64,000 nt of DNA from Peptoclostridium sp. (GTDB lineage: Bacteria; Bacillota; Clostridia; Peptostreptococcales; Peptostreptococcaceae). The position numbers and the translations under genes were made by a program. This document shows, one piece after another, positions 53,028 to 64,000 of this stretch (position 1 is the stretch's first letter; every line of letters begins with the position of its first letter). The stretch lies in NCBI RefSeq assembly GCF_009881055.1, contig NZ_WXFG01000029.1, positions 62,001-126,000 on the forward strand. Reading direction: 5' to 3'. The notes below the pieces were generated by a model that was not told the DNA's origin, did not search any database, and worked only from the letters and a program-made list of their open reading frames with translations.

Positions 53028-53375
53028 AATATACCTCCGTTCGTAGTCATTATATCTTGTTTGCATTTTTCATCTATACGGCTGCACTAATTAGCATGCT
53101 TTGTCAAGCTATAATCTACCCTAACAACCATTCATCATCACAAAAATCTGTAAGTTTATTTAATCTCGATTGCCAAATAACTTTTCACTTTATGCTTATC
53201 ATCAACGAAATTAAACACCCTTGTTTCTTTATTTTTTAATCGCGATTACATAATAGATTCATTAGTTCGTGCCTGACACTAGTGATTTCCACTAGATATA
53301 TTCCATCCGAAAATATTACTCACCTCTATGGCCTCCAAAAATAATTTGAGGACCATTTAAATTTACATACCTCCG
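53028..53375. other. AT-rich junction without genes at the left end of the defence island
   Basis: About 350 bp between ydbC and the small cysteine-rich gene. It is strongly AT-rich compared with the left side. It contains a short inverted repeat, CTAGTG/CACTAG near 53279-53295, and no tRNA, integrase or transposase remnant. A short plus-strand ORF (53057-53239) lacks a ribosome binding site and is not accepted. Confidence 0.6.
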
Positions 53376-53579
53376 TCATATAAATAACATGCACCCCTGT
53401 TCTTTAAATTCTTGCACTTTATCAACAAGTTCATCCGTCGTAACTTCAAGATAATCTGACAAACATTCTAAACAAAAATATTTTTCTATATTTCGCCCAA
53501 TTAACTTTTGATTCAATCCTATTTCATCTTTAGAAATGTTAACATTGCATGCAAAACACTGCTTTTTAATTTTTTTCAC
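53376..53579 (-). CDS. Small cysteine-rich protein coupled to brxL
   Basis: 67 residues with two CxxC pairs (CFAC at residues 8-11 and CLEC near residue 37), spaced as in a zinc knuckle, then an acidic helix. GTG at 53579 overlaps the brxL stop as TAGTG, so it is translated by coupling. It is the last gene of the BREX operon. I do not recognise a family. Being coupled to brxL suggests a role with it, for example as a regulatory or adaptor subunit, but this is inference. Confidence 0.72.
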   Translation of the reverse strand: MKKIKKQCFACNVNISKDEIGLNQKLIGRNIEKYFCLECLSDYLEVTTDELVDKVQEFKEQGCMLFI

Positions 53580-55015
53580 TATATATTCAACCCCCGAATT
53601 TCAAAACGTGGAACACTTTTACCTTTGTATTCCGTATCCAAAATACCTAGTTGATATTTTATGATGCTCCTCATGCTTACTGCTGGTCTCAAACAGTATT
53701 TTTTAAATTGCAGTAAATCAATGTCATCAAAATTTCTGACATTAGGGAACAACAATTTGACATAAGCAGTACAAATTCTTTTAATAGCTTCAGTATCTCT
53801 AGTATCAGCTTTTTCTGGAACAATTACTAATTCATCGACAATTGCCCTATAACTGACATCATCTCTAAGCAAGTGCATAATCTCTGAAAAGTATTCAGAA
53901 TTTAGTGCCCAATCACTAATTTTCAAATCATCGTGCATGCGCGGAATATCCCAGCCTTTGATAAAGCCATGAAATCTATCAATCAATGCACTCTCATGAA
54001 ATATTTTAGGCAATTCCTCTAACATATTTCCATACTCATTCATATTTTCTTCATTTATATTTCCAAGCAGAACAACACCCGATTCAGCTGTTCCTTCATA
54101 GTTTCCAACAGTGAATATTCCTGATTCCATATATCCTTTGAGCGCAGCTCTCATTTCGTCTACATCTGCAAATGAAATAGTTTGAACTTCATCGAGAGCT
54201 ACAAAATCATTCCCACATACTAATCCCTGTTGCTTTTTAGCTTGATCGTAAAACATTTTTGCGCGTGACATTACTCCACCAGATGAAAGCCAACAATACT
54301 TACTCACTCTTCCAAACAAGTATGACTTGCCTGTCCCTTTTGGCGCAAGTTCTATTAGATTTAGCCTTTTTTCGATGAAAGGTAATAGTCTTGTAAGCAT
54401 AGTCAATTTCTCTTTTTCTGTGTCATAACCACCGGCATTATAATCTATTGCTCCAAGCAATAAATCTATCCACTGTTCTATAGTAAAATTATTTCTAACT
54501 TCCTTGTAATAATCAAGATCAATTGTATAAGGGCAAAAATTTTGAAATCCGATAAGCTTAATTTTACCTGGCTCTGTTTTTGAGATAAAAGGCCTATATC
54601 CAAGTTCTACAATACCCCATATTTCCTTTCCAGCAATCAATTCTTCCTTGCAACTGTCCCATACATGCTGCTCAATTAAAGTTTCTTTTTTACCCAAGCT
54701 AAAATCAGGCAAAGTAAATGATATTTCTCCAGTTTTAATGTCTATATCCGCTGAAACTTTGGCAAGGAATTTGACTCTCTCGTTCTCATTTATAATTCGA
54801 TCTTTTATTCGCACCCAATCATCTTTCTTAGGAATATATTGTTTGATATACTCACTTAACTCCTCTATATCAAAACTCCCGTCATTATCCGCAAAACGCT
54901 TTAATAACCAATCACGTAAGAAAGAAGGGAGGCTTAGAGCAGAAAAAAAATTACTTTTTCTCAAATCCTTATATACAACCATATCATCAAAGTACTCCCT
55001 AAGTAAATCTTTCAT
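53579..55015 (-). CDS. brxL: BREX protein BrxL-like AAA+ ATPase, short form
   Basis: 478 residues. Walker A APKGTGKSYLF near residue 225, Walker B with FVALDEVQTI, sensor region VVLLGNINEE, and DRFHGFIKGWDIPRM, which is diagnostic for the BrxL/Lon_2 ATPase family. Typical BrxL is about 680 residues with a C-terminal Lon-like domain; here the protein ends shortly after the ATPase core and no Lon Ser/Lys pair is visible. Start ATG at 55015 follows AAGGGGGG. It begins 10 bp after pglZ. BrxL is the motor-like component linked to defence in BREX systems. Confidence 0.86.
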   Translation of the reverse strand: MKDLLREYFDDMVVYKDLRKSNFFSALSLPSFLRDWLLKRFADNDGSFDIEELSEYIKQYIPKKDDWVRIKDRIINENERVKFLAKVSADIDIKTGEISFTLPDFSLGKKETLIEQHVWDSCKEELIAGKEIWGIVELGYRPFISKTEPGKIKLIGFQNFCPYTIDLDYYKEVRNNFTIEQWIDLLLGAIDYNAGGYDTEKEKLTMLTRLLPFIEKRLNLIELAPKGTGKSYLFGRVSKYCWLSSGGVMSRAKMFYDQAKKQQGLVCGNDFVALDEVQTISFADVDEMRAALKGYMESGIFTVGNYEGTAESGVVLLGNINEENMNEYGNMLEELPKIFHESALIDRFHGFIKGWDIPRMHDDLKISDWALNSEYFSEIMHLLRDDVSYRAIVDELVIVPEKADTRDTEAIKRICTAYVKLLFPNVRNFDDIDLLQFKKYCLRPAVSMRSIIKYQLGILDTEYKGKSVPRFEIRGLNI

Positions 55016-55025
55016 GCCGCCCCCC

Positions 55026-57299
55026 TTAAATACCATAGTCTTTTTCATTGCTTGTCGGCTTAATAACATTAAATTTTATTTTGTCTATATATTGTTCATT
55101 AGCGTATACTTCTCCCTCATATTCACCAAGTTTAATAATGTCATATATCGGTACAGTGTAATACCTTCCATCGAATTCTGTTGATTCATACTCATTATTA
55201 TTGAGTTTGACTTTGATTTTTTCGAATTTTTTCGTTACGAATATTTTTAGAACAGCTTTGATTTTGTAACTAACCGTAATAACATCTTCCACTAAATTTG
55301 CTCTTATTATTTCTTTTTCATTTTTCACAACAATAACTGGCACTATTAGTTCTTCTAATGTTGCACCTCCGTGAGTTTCTACTCTTGGGGCACCTGGAGT
55401 TTTAAACCTATCATAACTAGCCAGTATACATTGGTCATTCTCAATTGTAGCATATAAAGGAACCTCCATCCCTTCTACATATTTACAACATCTGCCACCT
55501 TGAGTCCCATTTGTTTCAGTGGGATATGTGATTTTATTGCCATACAAAACCACTAGCCTACTAGCCCCATGATCAGATACCACAATTACTTTTTTTACAT
55601 CGGGCTTTGATAGTTCTGCTTTAATCTTTCTAAAAATTTCTTTGATTATATTTAATTCCTCATGAATATGTAATGGTAATTTTGAAAATTCATAATTGTA
55701 ATCACCCTTGCCTTCATGTTTTATATCATCCAAATCCTTTATATCATTTGTTATATCCCAGAAACCCTCTAGAAAATCCTTATTCGAAAATGTTGTGGTT
55801 GGCAAATTAGCTGTAGTAAAGGACACATCGATACTTAATCCCATCTCTGTGCATATTTTCCCGATATACCCCATATATTCGACACCTAAAGAATCAACGA
55901 AATAGATTTTACTGCCTCTTTTGTCGATTTTTTCAAACACTTCGTTTCTTGTTTTTAAAAATAGATTATAATCTCTTCTTTTGGCATTCTCATAGACAAC
56001 ATCAATAAATCCGTTATATATTTTATTGTTGAGCTTCTGCAATTTATACTTTTTAAAATAATCATTATATGGCTCAATTCCGATATTATACTCCATCATA
56101 TAACTTTCAAGTTCTGGATAAACTTTTGATATAATTGCCCTTGAATTATCATCAATATAATCAAGTTCACTGAGCCATGAAAATATACACTCTCTTTCAA
56201 GCGATGTTATATTTGTCAAATAATAAATTCTGTCTTCGGCTTTCATATTAACAATGGAACAAAATTCATTGATGCAACTATCATTCCCAATAACTTCTAT
56301 GAGATTTTTTCTTTGATTATACAGCGATTCAAACTCATCATCTTCATATGAAAAATCAAGTATGCTAAAGTATAAATTTCTAATAAAATCCGTATTCTTT
56401 AAAGATTTCTTTACAACATAATCCAAATACTTGTTTTTAATTTCTGAAAGCTTAAGAGCAATAAAGTATAGCCACTTAATATTGTCATCCCATTTACTCC
56501 AATTATAAAATAGCAAATCAATGTTATCCATATTGCCGAATTCTCTTATCAATAAATCTTTCAAGCAATATTCATGCATATTTTCATATAGATATTTCCA
56601 ATTATCTTCAGTCCCCAAATCCGAAGTAATCTCACCAGGAATTTCTTTGAATAAATTCAACAATTGAAAGCTATCTGATATTTTTCTAATATTGACTCCT
56701 GCCTCACTATAATCATAATTATAATGTCTAGTTGAAACTGGCAATTTTACTATACACTCTTCCTCACATTGATCCAAATAATTCTTAATACCATTAATAA
56801 CATTACCATTTTTTTTATTTGTTATTTGTGAGTTAACCAGATTTAATGTTGCATTCTCTAAGCGGTCCCCTTTTACAAGTATTATTTGATTTTGATTCTT
56901 GAATCTAACATCTCTATCTAGTATCTCTTTCAATTTATTTTCGCAGTCAAAATAAATCATTATAACTTTTGCCAATGTGTTCATGCTAGATAGCAAAACC
57001 TGTGTCCACATTTCAAAGGATTCTTTGTTCTTTAATTTCAGATATTGACTTACACCCAGCACTAGGCTGCTTTTGTCGGTTTCTCTACAACATTTAACAA
57101 ATTTTTCAATATCCGGCATGTCATCATATTCACAACAAAAATTCGAAAGTTTTATTGTAGACAATTCAATATCTAAAGATGATTTAATATTCATATAGTC
57201 TTCAACATTGTTTATATTAACAATCAGAAATTTACTCATATTAGATTGTTTTAGAAATTTTTTTATACAGTCTATGGCAACATGAGCTTCCTCAGTCAT
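55026..57299 (-). CDS. pglZ: BREX protein PglZ (alkaline-phosphatase fold)
   Basis: 757 residues. The N-terminal half (about 1-420) is helical and divergent. The PglZ domain (about 450-680) has the metal-site segment YFVDSLGVEYMGYI near residue 460 and VVSDHGASRLVVLYG near residue 575, as in the phosphatase superfamily. A beta-rich tail (about 690-757) follows. PglZ is the one protein shared by all BREX types; it is needed for modification and defence, although its substrate is unknown. It lies 8 bp after brxC and 10 bp before brxL. Confidence 0.92.
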   Translation of the reverse strand: MTEEAHVAIDCIKKFLKQSNMSKFLIVNINNVEDYMNIKSSLDIELSTIKLSNFCCEYDDMPDIEKFVKCCRETDKSSLVLGVSQYLKLKNKESFEMWTQVLLSSMNTLAKVIMIYFDCENKLKEILDRDVRFKNQNQIILVKGDRLENATLNLVNSQITNKKNGNVINGIKNYLDQCEEECIVKLPVSTRHYNYDYSEAGVNIRKISDSFQLLNLFKEIPGEITSDLGTEDNWKYLYENMHEYCLKDLLIREFGNMDNIDLLFYNWSKWDDNIKWLYFIALKLSEIKNKYLDYVVKKSLKNTDFIRNLYFSILDFSYEDDEFESLYNQRKNLIEVIGNDSCINEFCSIVNMKAEDRIYYLTNITSLERECIFSWLSELDYIDDNSRAIISKVYPELESYMMEYNIGIEPYNDYFKKYKLQKLNNKIYNGFIDVVYENAKRRDYNLFLKTRNEVFEKIDKRGSKIYFVDSLGVEYMGYIGKICTEMGLSIDVSFTTANLPTTTFSNKDFLEGFWDITNDIKDLDDIKHEGKGDYNYEFSKLPLHIHEELNIIKEIFRKIKAELSKPDVKKVIVVSDHGASRLVVLYGNKITYPTETNGTQGGRCCKYVEGMEVPLYATIENDQCILASYDRFKTPGAPRVETHGGATLEELIVPVIVVKNEKEIIRANLVEDVITVSYKIKAVLKIFVTKKFEKIKVKLNNNEYESTEFDGRYYTVPIYDIIKLGEYEGEVYANEQYIDKIKFNVIKPTSNEKDYGI

Positions 57300-57307
57300 G
57301 ATTACAC

Positions 57308-60300
57308 CTACCTGTCCTTTAATATTTCCATACCAACTTCTATTCTTTCCTTTATTAATGATTTTAGATACAATTTGACATTTGCTTCGCTCATACTTTC
57401 AATTTTGGCAAGCGCTTCTTCACAACCGTTTGTATCGTATAATTTTCGCGCATAACCATCTAGAATTTTTTCCAATTGTTGGGTTTTGGGATACCACTCA
57501 TATACACCGTGAGGAAATCTTGTAAGTATCGCTTCACGCGCATCATCTACATCTTTAATTATAAAATATTTATCAATTATTTTATCCTTGAAAGCTTTGT
57601 TGCGAACCACTTCATCACGCATTCTCTCGAAAATAGTCGTTCTTTTAAAATAGTCAATTGCATCTTTAATATCACTATCTGATGGCATTTTTTGCATAAG
57701 TGTTTCAAAAGACTTTTTTGCCATGTCATATTCTTCATCCGCCATACACAATATTGGCGTTCTATACCTATCCGACCATTCTCGTGGTGAATTTGTACCA
57801 GTTTTAGCCAACCATAGTTCCTTTAATTCTTCAATCAGAATTGTTTTTCTGTATTCAGTAATCTTCAAAGACGCAACATTTTGAAATTCCGAATTTGTTT
57901 TAGCAAAAACTCCGAGCGGCATGTTTGTGAAAATTTTTCCAATGTCAGCATCAGATAATCCGTTTAGATCGAAACTGCACTTTTCTTTAAACCAATCAAC
58001 TTGATTATTAAAATGATTGACGAAAATCTCACCATTCGTTTGCAATGCCTCCAAGAATAGTTTTCTATTGCCGTTTCTCAAATCCTTTGATGTGAAAATT
58101 CCATAGAGACAATCCAAAAATGGCCGTAATTCAGAAAAATCGTTTTTTATTCCCTCGTAAGGCAACTTGAAATGATTCATTTTGTCAGCCCATGCTAAAA
58201 TTGTATCTTTAAAACTAGTGGTTTTCATTACATAGTTATTACTAATAAGAACAATTTTATATTCTATTATTAAATCATCAATTTTCTCATTAATTGTTTC
58301 TTTATGCCACAGCCATGAAGAGTCTCCAGTCACCTTGCTTTTAAGATCTGCAATCTTGGCATCATCGCAACCTATTTCCACAGCAAGTTTTTTCAACTCC
58401 CCTGATTTATACTCATTTAAATAAATTTCCATTCCTCTTTTGCATGCTTCAGTATTTATAAACCTTCCAACCTCTTTAGCAATACCCTCATTTTGCACAT
58501 AGAGTTGTCCAATTTCAATGACTATATCGCTTTCTGTTTTACCAGAACCGTTATTATTAACAAGAATGCAATAGAGATTTATTAATTTAATCATTTCAGA
58601 GTAATTATCTGGTTTTTCTTGTTGCAAAGCTATGTTTGCAGCCCATAGTGGTATGCCGATATTTCTGATAGCTGCCCTTACTTCTTCACGTGTTTTTTCA
58701 ATCGTCGCACAATTAGACTCTCTTATTCCAAAAACTAAAGCTGTATTATTTAAAAATTCCCTTTCTTCTGTTGACATCTTCACAATATACTTTTCTACAT
58801 ATCTATTACTTGGATTTATCTGCTGTTTGATAATTTCATCAATCATCTCTACCATTTTTTCAACAGACAGAGTATCTCCTACTTGTTCGTTGCTCCACCT
58901 GTATGTTCCATCAGCATAATCCTTTAATAAAAATCCTAGGACAAATGAAGTAAGGTTACACGGCATGAATCCATACGGCTCGACTTTTAAAAATTCATAT
59001 ATTTTTGATATAGCTATCTTTCCGCTTTTCTCAAAGGCTGCATTTATATGTTTGTCTAATTCCACTTTGATTTTGTTTATTATATGATTGGAATCATAAG
59101 ATTCTTCTCCCTCGTTTATTCTCCAAATACCTTTCATTACATTTTCTAGCTTTGTTGCATCATTTGAGGAACGATATTGTCCTGATATTTCTTGAGTGAT
59201 TCCACACTTTGCCCCTTGTTTGAAATTCGTTGCATTGTACATTGTTGCTACGACATTGAAATTTTCAATTCCCATACTGAATATATTTCGGTTAAATTTA
59301 TTTAATTTTGCCTCGATTTCAACAGCCCCAAACGCTTTTATTTCTTCATCTTTTGTTATTATTCTGAATTCAGCATCCCTTAACTTGGCTTTCCACTTTT
59401 CAATAATGCCTGATGCATTATTACTGTACTGATCAGCCATACTATTGTCTTTACCTCTCCAATATTTTTCCTCAGCCAGATTTGTGATGAATTCTTCAAA
59501 ATCTTCATCAGATAAATCACATAATGACGTATCTACAAAAATTACTCTTTTATCGCTTATTTTTATAAGGTCTCTTATCTTTGAAATCAATATAGCTCTT
59601 TCAGTGTCGTTTAGCGCAAATGTCATAACTAATGGCAATGTATTTTCATAGTGTTTCTGATTTATCCCATTTACAATTCTTGTTATATCAGCTGTTGTCG
59701 CCGTCTGGATTTCGTATCTTAATTTTAGTGCGCCAGATAAGGATATTACTTCAGCCACATTATATTCATCTACAATATTTTTGATCTTTTTATCTTGCCT
59801 AAAATCTTCCTTATACTTATTTACGTCAACAGAATTGCTCCCAGAACGCATAGCTATATACTGAGCTTCATTGTTTCCAATAGCATGTTTGTATAGAAGT
59901 CCATCTCTTACTAAAACCTCTGCTATTTGAGCCGCCTTACCTTCGCCTAATTCTGTTCCTTCATAAGCATTGCAAATGTTTTTAGCCGTTGGCTTGAAAA
60001 GTTCCACACTGTCAAAGTTTTTTTCCGAGATTCCCTGCAACAACAGAACCGTCTTTAAGACTTTTTTCTTATCTAATGTAAGTAATTTGCTATTACCCCT
60101 CATATCATACACACTTAGAAGCGATTTTAGGCTTGCTTCCAGATTTGCTTTGCCATCCGCATAAAAATACTCCCATAACATATCTATTGTTAATAGATTT
60201 TCATCTGAAAAAGGCCCATGATTTTCAATATACCAAATGAAACCTCTGTCATCTTCCTCATCCCTTTTATTTTTAATAAATTCAAACATGCTTCTTTGAT

Positions 60301-61480
60301 TTGAGCTAAACATAGCCGAGAGATGTTTTAAAATAATGGCAGTATAGGGATGTATAGGGAGTATCTTTTTCAAATCCTTTTCATCAATTTTTGCCAGGTT
60401 CATAACCATGTTGCTGCACACGGGTATTTGTCCATACAAGTCATCTGCCAACTTATTCCACTCATTTCGAATCACAGAATCATCTTTTATTTGCATGGCT
60501 TTCCCCATAAGCTTAAAAGCCATATTCTCTGGCAAATTAATTTCACATGTAGGATTTATAAATCTATCAATGATTTTTTTACTGTCATCTTTCTCATTAA
60601 ATAAGCCTGTACTTTTATGAGTTACTATGACAAAGTAAAATGGCATTGTCTGGCTCAATTGTGCGAGATTCTGAAATCCCGTAATAGCATTTTTATTGTT
60701 ATGAAAATACTCTGTAAACTCATCCCATATAAAAACAATTGATTTGAGCCCATTTCTTTCAATTATATCTTTTATCCATTCACCTAAATCTGTGGCTTCC
60801 AACTTCAGTGCCGTAATACCTTCGTTATTAGCTACCATAAAGATTTTACGAGTTAGATCCGCGACTTCATTTTCTCCATAATTCTGCAATTTATGTATTA
60901 TAGACTCTGAATCATCAGAACCAAATTCATTTCTATATCTACCTTCTATATAATTATTAAAATTCATTGCATTTATTTTGTCTGAAAGCCATTTTATAAT
61001 AGATTCTTTCAAAGAATCTTCGCACTTATATTTATATCCTTTTTCAGAAATTGCTTTCTTAATGCTTTCTTGGATGGCCATAACAAGAGCGCTGTCGCCT
61101 TTAATCGTTGATGAACCTACTCTATGTACAGTCAGTATGTCTCCTTGCTTTTTTGCCCCTTGAATTGTATTAAAAAGATCCATGTCAAGACCATTATCTT
61201 TGAAATACTTCAAAACTTCTTCTTCAGATGCATCTAATATTTTTTTCAGTGTAAGTACAGCATGTGATTTTCCTGTTCCATAGGCACCTTCAACCCAAAT
61301 AGATCGATTTTGTTGTCGTCTAAGTATGCTTGCCGTATCTTTTAAAAGCCCTATAAAAGTACTATGAGGATAAAAAGTTGTCCAATCTACAAAACCTCCA
61401 GCAAGAAGTTCATCGCTGACTGAGGCATAATAATTTTCGTCTATGTCAAAAAAATTCTTATATGCATTCTGCGAGCTCAT
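57308..61480 (-). CDS. brxC: BREX P-loop protein BrxC (large, AAA-like)
   Basis: 1390 residues, large even for BrxC. Walker A GAYGTGKSHAV at residues 65-75 and a Walker B near residue 250 (IVFIWDEFTEYF). The rest is mainly helical with a HINPYTAIILKHLSAMFSSNQRS-like region near residue 375 (motif of BrxC/PglY ATPases), and no nuclease or protease motif I recognise. It lies 14 bp after brxP and 8 bp before pglZ. In BREX, BrxC is a large ATPase essential for defence. Confidence 0.9.
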   Translation of the reverse strand: MSSQNAYKNFFDIDENYYASVSDELLAGGFVDWTTFYPHSTFIGLLKDTASILRRQQNRSIWVEGAYGTGKSHAVLTLKKILDASEEEVLKYFKDNGLDMDLFNTIQGAKKQGDILTVHRVGSSTIKGDSALVMAIQESIKKAISEKGYKYKCEDSLKESIIKWLSDKINAMNFNNYIEGRYRNEFGSDDSESIIHKLQNYGENEVADLTRKIFMVANNEGITALKLEATDLGEWIKDIIERNGLKSIVFIWDEFTEYFHNNKNAITGFQNLAQLSQTMPFYFVIVTHKSTGLFNEKDDSKKIIDRFINPTCEINLPENMAFKLMGKAMQIKDDSVIRNEWNKLADDLYGQIPVCSNMVMNLAKIDEKDLKKILPIHPYTAIILKHLSAMFSSNQRSMFEFIKNKRDEEDDRGFIWYIENHGPFSDENLLTIDMLWEYFYADGKANLEASLKSLLSVYDMRGNSKLLTLDKKKVLKTVLLLQGISEKNFDSVELFKPTAKNICNAYEGTELGEGKAAQIAEVLVRDGLLYKHAIGNNEAQYIAMRSGSNSVDVNKYKEDFRQDKKIKNIVDEYNVAEVISLSGALKLRYEIQTATTADITRIVNGINQKHYENTLPLVMTFALNDTERAILISKIRDLIKISDKRVIFVDTSLCDLSDEDFEEFITNLAEEKYWRGKDNSMADQYSNNASGIIEKWKAKLRDAEFRIITKDEEIKAFGAVEIEAKLNKFNRNIFSMGIENFNVVATMYNATNFKQGAKCGITQEISGQYRSSNDATKLENVMKGIWRINEGEESYDSNHIINKIKVELDKHINAAFEKSGKIAISKIYEFLKVEPYGFMPCNLTSFVLGFLLKDYADGTYRWSNEQVGDTLSVEKMVEMIDEIIKQQINPSNRYVEKYIVKMSTEEREFLNNTALVFGIRESNCATIEKTREEVRAAIRNIGIPLWAANIALQQEKPDNYSEMIKLINLYCILVNNNGSGKTESDIVIEIGQLYVQNEGIAKEVGRFINTEACKRGMEIYLNEYKSGELKKLAVEIGCDDAKIADLKSKVTGDSSWLWHKETINEKIDDLIIEYKIVLISNNYVMKTTSFKDTILAWADKMNHFKLPYEGIKNDFSELRPFLDCLYGIFTSKDLRNGNRKLFLEALQTNGEIFVNHFNNQVDWFKEKCSFDLNGLSDADIGKIFTNMPLGVFAKTNSEFQNVASLKITEYRKTILIEELKELWLAKTGTNSPREWSDRYRTPILCMADEEYDMAKKSFETLMQKMPSDSDIKDAIDYFKRTTIFERMRDEVVRNKAFKDKIIDKYFIIKDVDDAREAILTRFPHGVYEWYPKTQQLEKILDGYARKLYDTNGCEEALAKIESMSEANVKLYLKSLIKERIEVGMEILKDR

Positions 61481-61494
61481 TCTTTACATCCCCC

Positions 61495-63819
61495 TTAAAA
61501 CAATTCTAAAACATCTGCAGAAGTCTTATCTCTATTCAATGTGATATTGTCAAGGTCATGAGTAAAGCCGACAGTAATAAAATCAGGATGGTTTACTGAT
61601 AAACCCGATAGAAGCTTTGTCATGACATCCCTTTCTATTCCAAAAATTAAGGTAGGACTTACCCCGTTGCTATCTATGTCATGATTAAGTAGTCTACTTA
61701 GTGTAAATTGATAATAATCGCCACAAGCTTCAGCAAATTTATATAAACCATATAGAATTACTTTAGGATCTGGATTTTTCCAAGATGTACGAATAATAGA
61801 TGTTACTGTTTTATTTTTGCCTTTTAGTTCCACCTTACCTAACCCTATATTTTCTCCCAAAGGAGTTTCCATTAGAATCCTTCTATATGCCGATAGAATT
61901 TGATTCGATCCTCTTTTATTTACACCTTCATCTTCAAGCATTAGTATAATTGATTCGCGCGTGTACAGTTGATCAAACTCAATATTCTTTATGTACCATC
62001 CCACTTGGGGTGCATAACTTAAATTAGTTAGTATGATTCCCCAGGCTACATCGGTTTCAATTCCAATATCGTCGACTATAATTGCTGTTGATGAAAAATT
62101 TTCATTTTCCATTAATTCAGCGTCTCTTAAAAACCTTTTAAAAAAATTAAACATCGGTCCGCCAAGTAAATGATTGTTTTTGAAATTATCTTTATGCTCA
62201 AAATAACTTTTAATCCATTCCTTTTGTACCCCATGAGTTGAATAACTGTTTAAACTCTTCTTTTCTCCCATACCACTTCCCCCTTTTGGCATCATTATGG
62301 ATTTATATATCAAACAACCCATATCAACTTTATGGCATTTTTGGCATTTCAAACATTTGTCATCCACCTTAACTTCATCAACCATGTTTAAATACCCTTG
62401 TACACAATTTGATTCACATACTCTACATCTTATACAATAAGCTGTCTTCCTAAATACTTGCTTGAATCCCTTGACAAATTGAGGATTTTCTCTGGCCAAG
62501 ATTGAATCTATCACCGCTATAATACCAAATTCATTGTCTGTCAGTATAAAATCATATTGCTTATCTCCGTATTTTATGCAATATTTAGTTTCATCAATAC
62601 TAATGATACTTCCTATTGTTTTTATCCACTCTTTCCAATTTGTTTTTGGATTCGGTATTTTTATGACTATATTGTTTCCTTCGATTTTTTCGTCGTAATT
62701 TAAAATGACATTGCCTAACTCAAGACCATTACGTCTCGCTTTCCATCCTCCACATGCAAGAAATTCTTCTTTATCTTTATCTGTTTCTAGAGATTTACTT
62801 GAATTTGTTATTATTTTCCTGATAAATGGTTTTGTTTCAGTACTTGATGATGCATTTCTGATATACTCATTTTTCAATGTTGACATCGGGCAAACTACAC
62901 AACCAACACGACTATTACCTTCTTTATATGAAGGATTAAAAATTAAATCATTTTGGTAAATATACAAAAATAATTCTGCCGTATTCCAAGTATCAATGGC
63001 ATTAAAGCTATATTGCCCATCGTGTTTTTCACTTTCACTAATCGTTTCGTATTTTGAACGTGAAATACTCTCATCTTTCCTTATACCAGTGAATGCCATT
63101 CCTTTGAAATTCGATTTATTTAATAATTTTCTCAACAAAATAATCTGTGGCGAAGTTTTATGTACGCTACAACACCATCTAAGTGTTTGAGAAGGTGGAC
63201 CAAATATATCCCATGTATCGGTGGCTTTTAAATGTGATTTTGCAGTATGAAAACTTATGTCTTGATATCCTTTAAAACGCTCAATTTCTTCTCTGACTTT
63301 ATATGTATCTTCACATTCCATATCTGTATCACCAAAAACAACAAAAAACTCATCATGCGGCAAGGCTCTTTGAACAATATCTAGCAACACAATGGAATCT
63401 TTACCACCACTAAAAGCCACATAAAAAGCATCTACTTTTGTTCTATATTCTAAAAAAGTAATGTAAACTTTTTTAATTGTATCGTTTACAAGTGAATTCA
63501 TAATTTCAGAATTTTTATCAACCATTGCTTTTAAGTCAATTGGGCGCAGCGTCAATCCTTCTTCATATACTTCAAGTTTTGGTGGATTATACAAGCTACC
63601 TCCAATAGTCTTGGCAACAATACGTCCTCTATATATATATTGACTAGATTCCGCCCACATGTAAGGAATATCGTCTTGCTTTTCATAGTTCCAACATTTA
63701 TCAAATCCCAGGATATCTAATTCTTTATAGTAGACCGGCCTTGGTTCCTTACTAAATTTTGATGCAGTCTTTGTCAGCAAGTATCCTCCAGTTGAAACAT
63801 CCCATTCATATGTATACAT
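61495..63819 (-). CDS. brxP: BREX type 4 BrxP: PP-loop/PAPS-reductase protein with ferredoxin and DUF4007-like parts
   Basis: 774 residues. The PP-loop SGGKDS is at residues 137-142, followed by FGDTDMECEDT. Cys216, Cys217, Cys307 and Cys310 (in RWCCSVH and GCVVCP) are spaced like the [4Fe-4S] ligands of the phosphorothioation enzyme DndC. Residues 462-502 add CxxCxxCxxxC and CxxCxxCxxxxxxC, a two-cluster ferredoxin-like unit. From about 535 the sequence fits the DUF4007 domain often encoded beside DndC-like genes. It is therefore a sulfur-chemistry enzyme, taking the place of the methyltransferase in type 1 BREX. ATG at 63819 follows AGGTTGTGAG. Confidence 0.88.
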   Translation of the reverse strand: MYTYEWDVSTGGYLLTKTASKFSKEPRPVYYKELDILGFDKCWNYEKQDDIPYMWAESSQYIYRGRIVAKTIGGSLYNPPKLEVYEEGLTLRPIDLKAMVDKNSEIMNSLVNDTIKKVYITFLEYRTKVDAFYVAFSGGKDSIVLLDIVQRALPHDEFFVVFGDTDMECEDTYKVREEIERFKGYQDISFHTAKSHLKATDTWDIFGPPSQTLRWCCSVHKTSPQIILLRKLLNKSNFKGMAFTGIRKDESISRSKYETISESEKHDGQYSFNAIDTWNTAELFLYIYQNDLIFNPSYKEGNSRVGCVVCPMSTLKNEYIRNASSSTETKPFIRKIITNSSKSLETDKDKEEFLACGGWKARRNGLELGNVILNYDEKIEGNNIVIKIPNPKTNWKEWIKTIGSIISIDETKYCIKYGDKQYDFILTDNEFGIIAVIDSILARENPQFVKGFKQVFRKTAYCIRCRVCESNCVQGYLNMVDEVKVDDKCLKCQKCHKVDMGCLIYKSIMMPKGGSGMGEKKSLNSYSTHGVQKEWIKSYFEHKDNFKNNHLLGGPMFNFFKRFLRDAELMENENFSSTAIIVDDIGIETDVAWGIILTNLSYAPQVGWYIKNIEFDQLYTRESIILMLEDEGVNKRGSNQILSAYRRILMETPLGENIGLGKVELKGKNKTVTSIIRTSWKNPDPKVILYGLYKFAEACGDYYQFTLSRLLNHDIDSNGVSPTLIFGIERDVMTKLLSGLSVNHPDFITVGFTHDLDNITLNRDKTSADVLELF

Positions 63820-63829
63820 ATCTCACAAC

Positions 63830-64000
63830 CTATCTTTTGGAATTCTTTTGCTTTGCAGCTAAATAAAGTACTTCAATGCCTTTATATCTTTTCTGAGCAA
63901 TATATCCATTATCAAATAGGTATTGAAGTGCCTCTTCTTGATTTTTTAATGGACAACATTTGTCATATTCCGCCAATGCTTCAGTAAGTACGTCTTCTGG
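63830..64000 (-). CDS. C-terminal 56 residues of an upstream BREX-operon gene (partial)
   Basis: An open frame enters from the window edge and ends with TAG at 63832-63830, 10 bp before brxP. The visible residues include LTEALAEYDKCCPLKNQEEA, then LQYLFDNGYIAQKRYKGIEVLYLAA and a lysine-rich tail. The pattern of helices with a basic turn resembles a winged-helix segment. The spacing to brxP implies the same transcript. Identity cannot be set from this fragment. Confidence 0.75.
   Translation of the reverse strand, partial: PEDVLTEALAEYDKCCPLKNQEEALQYLFDNGYIAQKRYKGIEVLYLAAKQKNSKR

Follow-up and report, generated by a model that had tools for sequence, protein, structure and literature searches.

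How a BREX type 4 system selects its DNA sites, or senses phage, is the question that this locus raises, and a Peptoclostridium genome offers a concrete candidate for the answer: a fifth gene ahead of brxP that is kept across a clade and has one fixed and one changeable half. In the type 4 passages of PMC12839542, methylation is described as replaced by a phosphorothioate apparatus, and brxPCZL is counted among the phosphorothioate-synthesis genes in part of PMC11931770 and named as type IV BREX phosphorothioate systems in part of PMC12707154. The stretch of DNA analyzed here, referred to as the window, comprises 64,000 nucleotides (bases 62001-126000 of contig C10, itself 222,526 bases long) of a genome of 2,040,807 bases that is 99.74% complete.

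On the minus strand of the window, the open reading frame coordinates give the closely packed order brxP, brxC, pglZ, brxL, and all four genes are named by PADLOC. The product of brxP (61495..63819, 774 aa) scores 828.6 bits with the BrxP model (E 1.3e-249) and matches Pfam PAPS_reduct (9.1e-27). The AAA+ ATPase gene brxC (57308..61480, 1390 aa; 775.6 bits, 2.2e-233) encodes Walker motifs and is the one member of the four without a Pfam match, with no NCBIfam match either. Next come pglZ (55026..57299, 757 aa; PADLOC 308 bits, 3.7e-92), a member of the phosphatase/nuclease family that scores 407.8 bits with the NCBIfam BREX-4 PglZ model NF033445 (1.1e-121; cut-off 140), and brxL (53579..55069, 496 aa as listed; PADLOC 738 bits), which reaches 412.1 bits with NCBIfam TIGR02688 (2.4e-123; cut-off 329.3) and has a solved relative, 8emc. 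BrxC, PglZ and BrxL adjoin BrxP, the type-specific PglZ model is well above its cut-off, and BrxP takes the place of the PglX methyltransferase, so this is a genuine BREX type 4 system, known in kind, and a phosphorothioate role for such systems has been published.

The core motifs are conserved, and both the gene order and the Walker, PglZ and PP-loop motifs named in the original prediction hold. The PP-loop SGGKDS is kept in 26 of the 27 other BrxP proteins compared (the 27th has a gap), and 12 cysteines are kept in all 27. The Walker A lysine is present in 19 of 22 BrxC relatives, the other three having gaps, and in all 19 BrxL relatives, while D469, D576, H577 and H643 of PglZ are kept in 21 of 21 others. 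Residue 470 of this PglZ (window:55026-57299), beside the invariant D469, is a serine; the 21 others have alanine (15) or glycine (6). Because the relatives of BrxL begin to align at residues 19-23, the true start of brxL is probably codon 19, at position 55015, a reading of the alignment with which the 44-base overlap with pglZ would vanish. A promoter scan of the operon scored no higher than shuffled sequence, and no excess of terminators was found within it; one terminator-like hairpin lies ahead of the operon's first gene, where 0.2 would be expected. A structure model of BrxP was set aside at a mean pLDDT of 44.

That first gene is where the original prediction, which regarded the operon within the window as complete-looking, has to be amended. 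A further gene, orf819, precedes brxP and ends 10 bp before it; only its final 171 bases (63830..64000, minus strand) fall inside the window, and it continues to window-equivalent position 66289. The whole gene (G000:C10:125830-128289, equal to L003:3831-6290, minus strand) encodes 819 aa.

The five genes lie together on an island of low GC content. Both flanks align with G774, a genome of the same genus, and the alignment ends at window position 53042 and restarts at window-equivalent 66687, which together with base composition defines an island of 13,644 bases (window-equivalent 53043-66686, C10:115043-128686; 53043..64000 within the window) with a GC content of 31.8%, where the flanks have 49.4 and 49.6%. 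G774 carries 4,443 other bases at this site (L138:15248-19573; G774:C1:1039647-1043972), encoding a protein judged helicase-like by eye (761 aa), proteins of 230 and 139 aa, and an HNH-type protein of 283 aa with an N domain of the orf819 kind (34% identity). Since a different cassette occupies the site in G774, the site looks, as far as sequence comparison tells, like a spot of defence-cassette exchange. No tRNA genes were found beside the island in L002 and L003. Elsewhere in the window, a 1611-aa protein (window:44864-49699) has no Pfam, PADLOC or NCBIfam match and is 81% identical in G774 over the part fetched.

The absence of a DNA methyltransferase, a central claim of the original prediction, was borne out for the three families searched by profile across the whole genome (PF02384, PF01555 and PF00145), none of which matches on contig C10. 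Two C5 methyltransferases lie side by side on C25, off the BREX contig; three N6_Mtase matches, on C26, C8 and C7, are barely above the cut-off, and two N6_N4_Mtase matches are both below it. A methyltransferase gene just beyond position 64000, which would have spoken against the claim, is likewise missing among the ten proteins scanned in the 13 kb past the window end. DndB, DndD and DndE, also predicted to be lacking, are absent among 18 proteins scanned with PADLOC, and BrxP does not qualify as DndC, scoring 29.9 bits against a cut-off of 290.4. BrxP is the single PF01507 match in the genome, and a second sulfur-inserting enzyme of this type, considered as a candidate, was not found there.

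The operon includes no cysteine desulfurase gene, and in this it differs from the 56% of taxa in which such a gene accompanies BREX type 4 according to a passage of PMC12839542. Cysteine desulfurases belong to the class V aminotransferase superfamily, which has five strong matches in the genome (109 to 295 bits), all outside the operon, and ten weak ones. The proposal that host DNA carries a sulfur mark, possibly phosphorothioate, agrees with the published reading of BREX type 4 (in parts of PMC12839542 and PMC11931770); the idea is sound and already known. By analogy with the other strains covered in that literature, the present system very probably marks host DNA with phosphorothioate.

BREX type 4 usually has a DUF4007-like part fused to BrxP, and residues 523-763 of BrxP, at its C-terminus, match a DUF4007 (SspB-type) protein in a single profile comparison (probability 84%, E 8e-6); the Pfam DUF4007 model itself does not match BrxP (P0001). 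With this tail the operon has SspD-like, SspC-like and SspB/DUF4007-like parts, as do Ssp systems (SspABCD with SspE or SspFGH). It nevertheless does not belong to the Ssp type: the SspB-like part is fused to BrxP, PglZ and BrxL are present, and the SspC score of 57.9 bits is far under the 775.6 bits for BrxC. An Ssp-like cluster was seen at L076:3306-9588, where weakly BrxC-like and BrxP-like proteins have a separate DUF4007 gene between them.

The fifth protein itself matches no Pfam, PADLOC or NCBIfam family at 0.001, is assigned to no known PADLOC defence family, and at a relaxed threshold gives one meaningless Pfam match (E 1.6). It has no match in plasmid and phage records, and wide protein searches returned 9 and 7 proteins, query included, among the best 7995 and 7994 word-sharing candidates. 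Its architecture comprises an N-terminal domain of HNH-enzyme type, a SAM-like piece and tandem winged helices. The N domain is common to small HNH-type proteins (8 proteins); orf819 contains no HNH motif by pattern and no Pfam nuclease family, and thus does not qualify as an HNH endonuclease. The C half is modelled at a pLDDT of about 88, and within residues 340-819 the model predicts repeated units of three helices and a wing, probably six to seven, which constitute a tandem winged-helix array. Its best PDB matches are the arrays of UFL1 and SelB; a second structure search spans mainly residues 486-546, and families absent from it may still be represented in the protein.

Distribution links this protein to BrxP. 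Twenty-nine BrxP loci were compared: 4 from named genomes, 10 from 391 genomes of the class and 15 from 398 genomes of the phylum, where class matches were kept at 2e-85 or better, own locus included, weaker ones such as the partial matches G059, G282 and G025 were left out, and the phylum set excludes the own locus. All four named genomes with a close BrxP carry a C-half relative at the same place. Overall, the fifth gene precedes brxP in 16 of the 29 loci, a count that includes L072, where just the last 95 residues are visible at a contig end; 15 precede it directly, and in L108 a gene for a 238-aa protein intervenes. The gap between the two genes is -8 to +10 bases in 12 of the 16. Every locus whose BrxP is at least 41% identical to ours has the fifth gene, none at 38% or below has it, and on the BrxP tree the 16 fall in one starred clade of 18 rows. 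The intervening protein of L108 (L108:6162-6878) has no Pfam match. At L075:3222-4682 and L114:9314-11332, the 20 kb fetched contain a brxP piece and no brxC, pglZ or brxL; the L075 piece is still preceded by the fifth gene.

Outside the clade there are 11 loci, of which 10 have DNA ahead of brxP but no fifth gene there, and BREX type 4 can therefore work without it; the eleventh, L046, has no DNA ahead of its brxP. The remaining two clade rows, L113 and L115, which are placed on a long branch, have a similarly built protein before brxP. Their C parts are 48% identical over 280 aa, and the L113 protein carries a HARE-HTH domain. A profile of the two proteins matches the fifth family at E 2e-5 (probability 77%). 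Alone, L113 reaches E 7.3e-4, better than any of 107 background proteins, of which the best has 3.3e-3; L115 reaches 6.5e-3 and is outscored by two of the background proteins, both of them BrxL. The L113 protein is, on these profile comparisons, probably remotely akin to the fifth family, and the L115 protein may be.

The N half of the fifth protein differs among close relatives while the C halves stay related, at the level of sequence comparison. The closest C-half relatives of orf819 are P0006 (58%), P0007 (49%) and a Clostridium bowmanii protein (41%). P0006 has an N end unlike that of orf819, with Pfam accessions that we take to be TPR families, and after it the SAM-like piece that orf819 has too (51%); P0007 retains the HNH-type N domain (29%), and the C. 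bowmanii protein has SAM-like pieces in repeats. The N domain of orf819 has a match in none of the 14 loci containing an N half. A domain labelled Myb-like here opens 7 of 17 proteins, four of those seven being the ones from which the model was built. In the L113 and L115 pair, the BrxP proteins are 67% identical and the N parts of the upstream proteins are without similarity; the L113 N part shares 45% identity with its L105 counterpart and 49% with that of L107, and the L115 N part resembles part of that of L005 (25%, E 1e-4). L073 and L074 have BrxP proteins 80% identical and C halves 49% identical. Measured against our operon, the C half shows lower conservation than BrxP, BrxC, PglZ and BrxL in all 13 loci in which all five were measured, with PglZ nearly as divergent, three points apart in the tightest cases. 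Such fast divergence does not by itself prove a recognition role.

Taken as a whole, we read the locus as a sulfur-marking, phage-blocking BREX type 4 system whose fifth protein would serve as an exchangeable subunit for DNA recognition or phage sensing, with a probability of roughly 0.45. The role of the fifth protein, considered separately, stands at about even odds: a recognition or sensing subunit is suggested because its gene is paired with brxP across the clade, its N half swaps and its C half is predicted to consist of winged helices. In such a system, a housekeeping cysteine desulfurase would supply sulfur, and BrxP, as its PP-loop, its Fe-S-type cysteines and the published brxPCZL work suggest, would accept it and put it into the DNA backbone. 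The BrxC ATPase would hold the DNA together with the DUF4007-like tail of BrxP, the winged-helix protein with its changeable N half would direct the complex to DNA in the manner of a specificity subunit, and PglZ and BrxL would, in the literature model, attack unmarked phage DNA; PglZ, which in the original prediction would help to make the mark, is regarded as the nuclease effector in a passage of PMC12839542. A more specific version, in which the winged-helix array docks on BrxP-BrxC and the swappable N half picks a DNA sequence or phage feature, making this an unrecognised fifth core protein of clostridial BREX type 4, is put forward tentatively and is somewhat doubtful.

The nearest precedent, by analogy, is the group of multi-winged-helix recognition subunits discussed in part of PMC10853773, where rapidly evolving proteins with two to four winged helices are described as recognition subunits in related systems, and a target-recognition role in phosphorothioate systems is proposed for subunits with winged-helix triples (SspB, DndG). 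As in DndG, SspB and the DNA-binding part of FokI, a fast-diverging winged-helix array here lies beside a phosphorothioate or restriction machine (PMC10853773, same part). However, orf819 would have six to seven units rather than two to four, it has a changeable N half in addition, and the likeness is one of predicted fold.

BrxR occupies a similar place in other BREX systems, and the fifth protein might accordingly be a transcriptional regulator of the operon, with marking and defence needing only brxPCZL. Its gene comes first in the operon, winged helices are frequent in regulators, and Pfam finds Sigma70_r4 in 10 of 23 members of the C-half family and RNA_pol_A_CTD in 2. Moreover, the winged-helix half also exists in clostridial proteins (L078-L087), many with Sigma70_r4, and the stretches fetched around these contain no brxP. 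On the best tree of C halves, in which L077, presumably from the same genome on another contig, substitutes for L072, the loci L106 and L108 group with these solitary proteins and linkage to brxP needs two changes, while the starred branches alone force only one. Although its relatives carry Sigma70_r4, orf819 (P0005) itself has none, either at E 0.01, where it matches no family, or at E 10. The narrow gap to brxP is that of subunits made together, and the N half varies among close relatives while the operon is unchanged, so that we consider a regulator unlikely.

Still less probably, the fifth gene would be an anti-phage sensor or effector in its own right, semi-independent of the operon it travels with and comparable to the auxiliary effectors adjoining BREX described in part of PMC12839542. 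Sharing of the N domain with small HNH-type proteins, one of them at the same G774 site, would suit such a role, but orf819 yielded no nuclease motif or family, HNH included, and the constant place before brxP in 16 loci is unlike that of a passenger. As for the mark, the published phosphorothioate evidence concerns other strains, in the parts of those sources cited above, and the system could bear a different mark or be markless and restricting only; the kept PP-loop, the 12 invariant cysteines and the DUF4007-like tail of BrxP make this very improbable.

The recognition-subunit reading, if true in its specificity form, would make orf819 the phosphorothioate counterpart of HsdS, and related operons with differing N halves would be ready-made swap tests. 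The extra 819-aa gene sets the operon apart from BREX type 4 as listed in the type 4 text of PMC12839542, in which no gene like it is described. Titles and abstracts on BREX type 4, BrxP and winged-helix proteins do not describe it either, and supplementary tables may hold it; a clade-wide fifth component thus appears unreported in the portions of the literature examined. Gene finders that end at brxPCZL can overlook one gene of the unit.

Finally, two observations concern other loci. In another BREX type 4 operon, a ResIII helicase with a PLD-type domain lies ahead of the fifth gene (L107:14417-17608). In plasmid records, BrxP is matched in two, both of one plasmid of the methanogenic archaeon Methanosphaera sp. 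ISO3-F5 (NZ_CP118754), which encodes a full-length relative at 30% identity.
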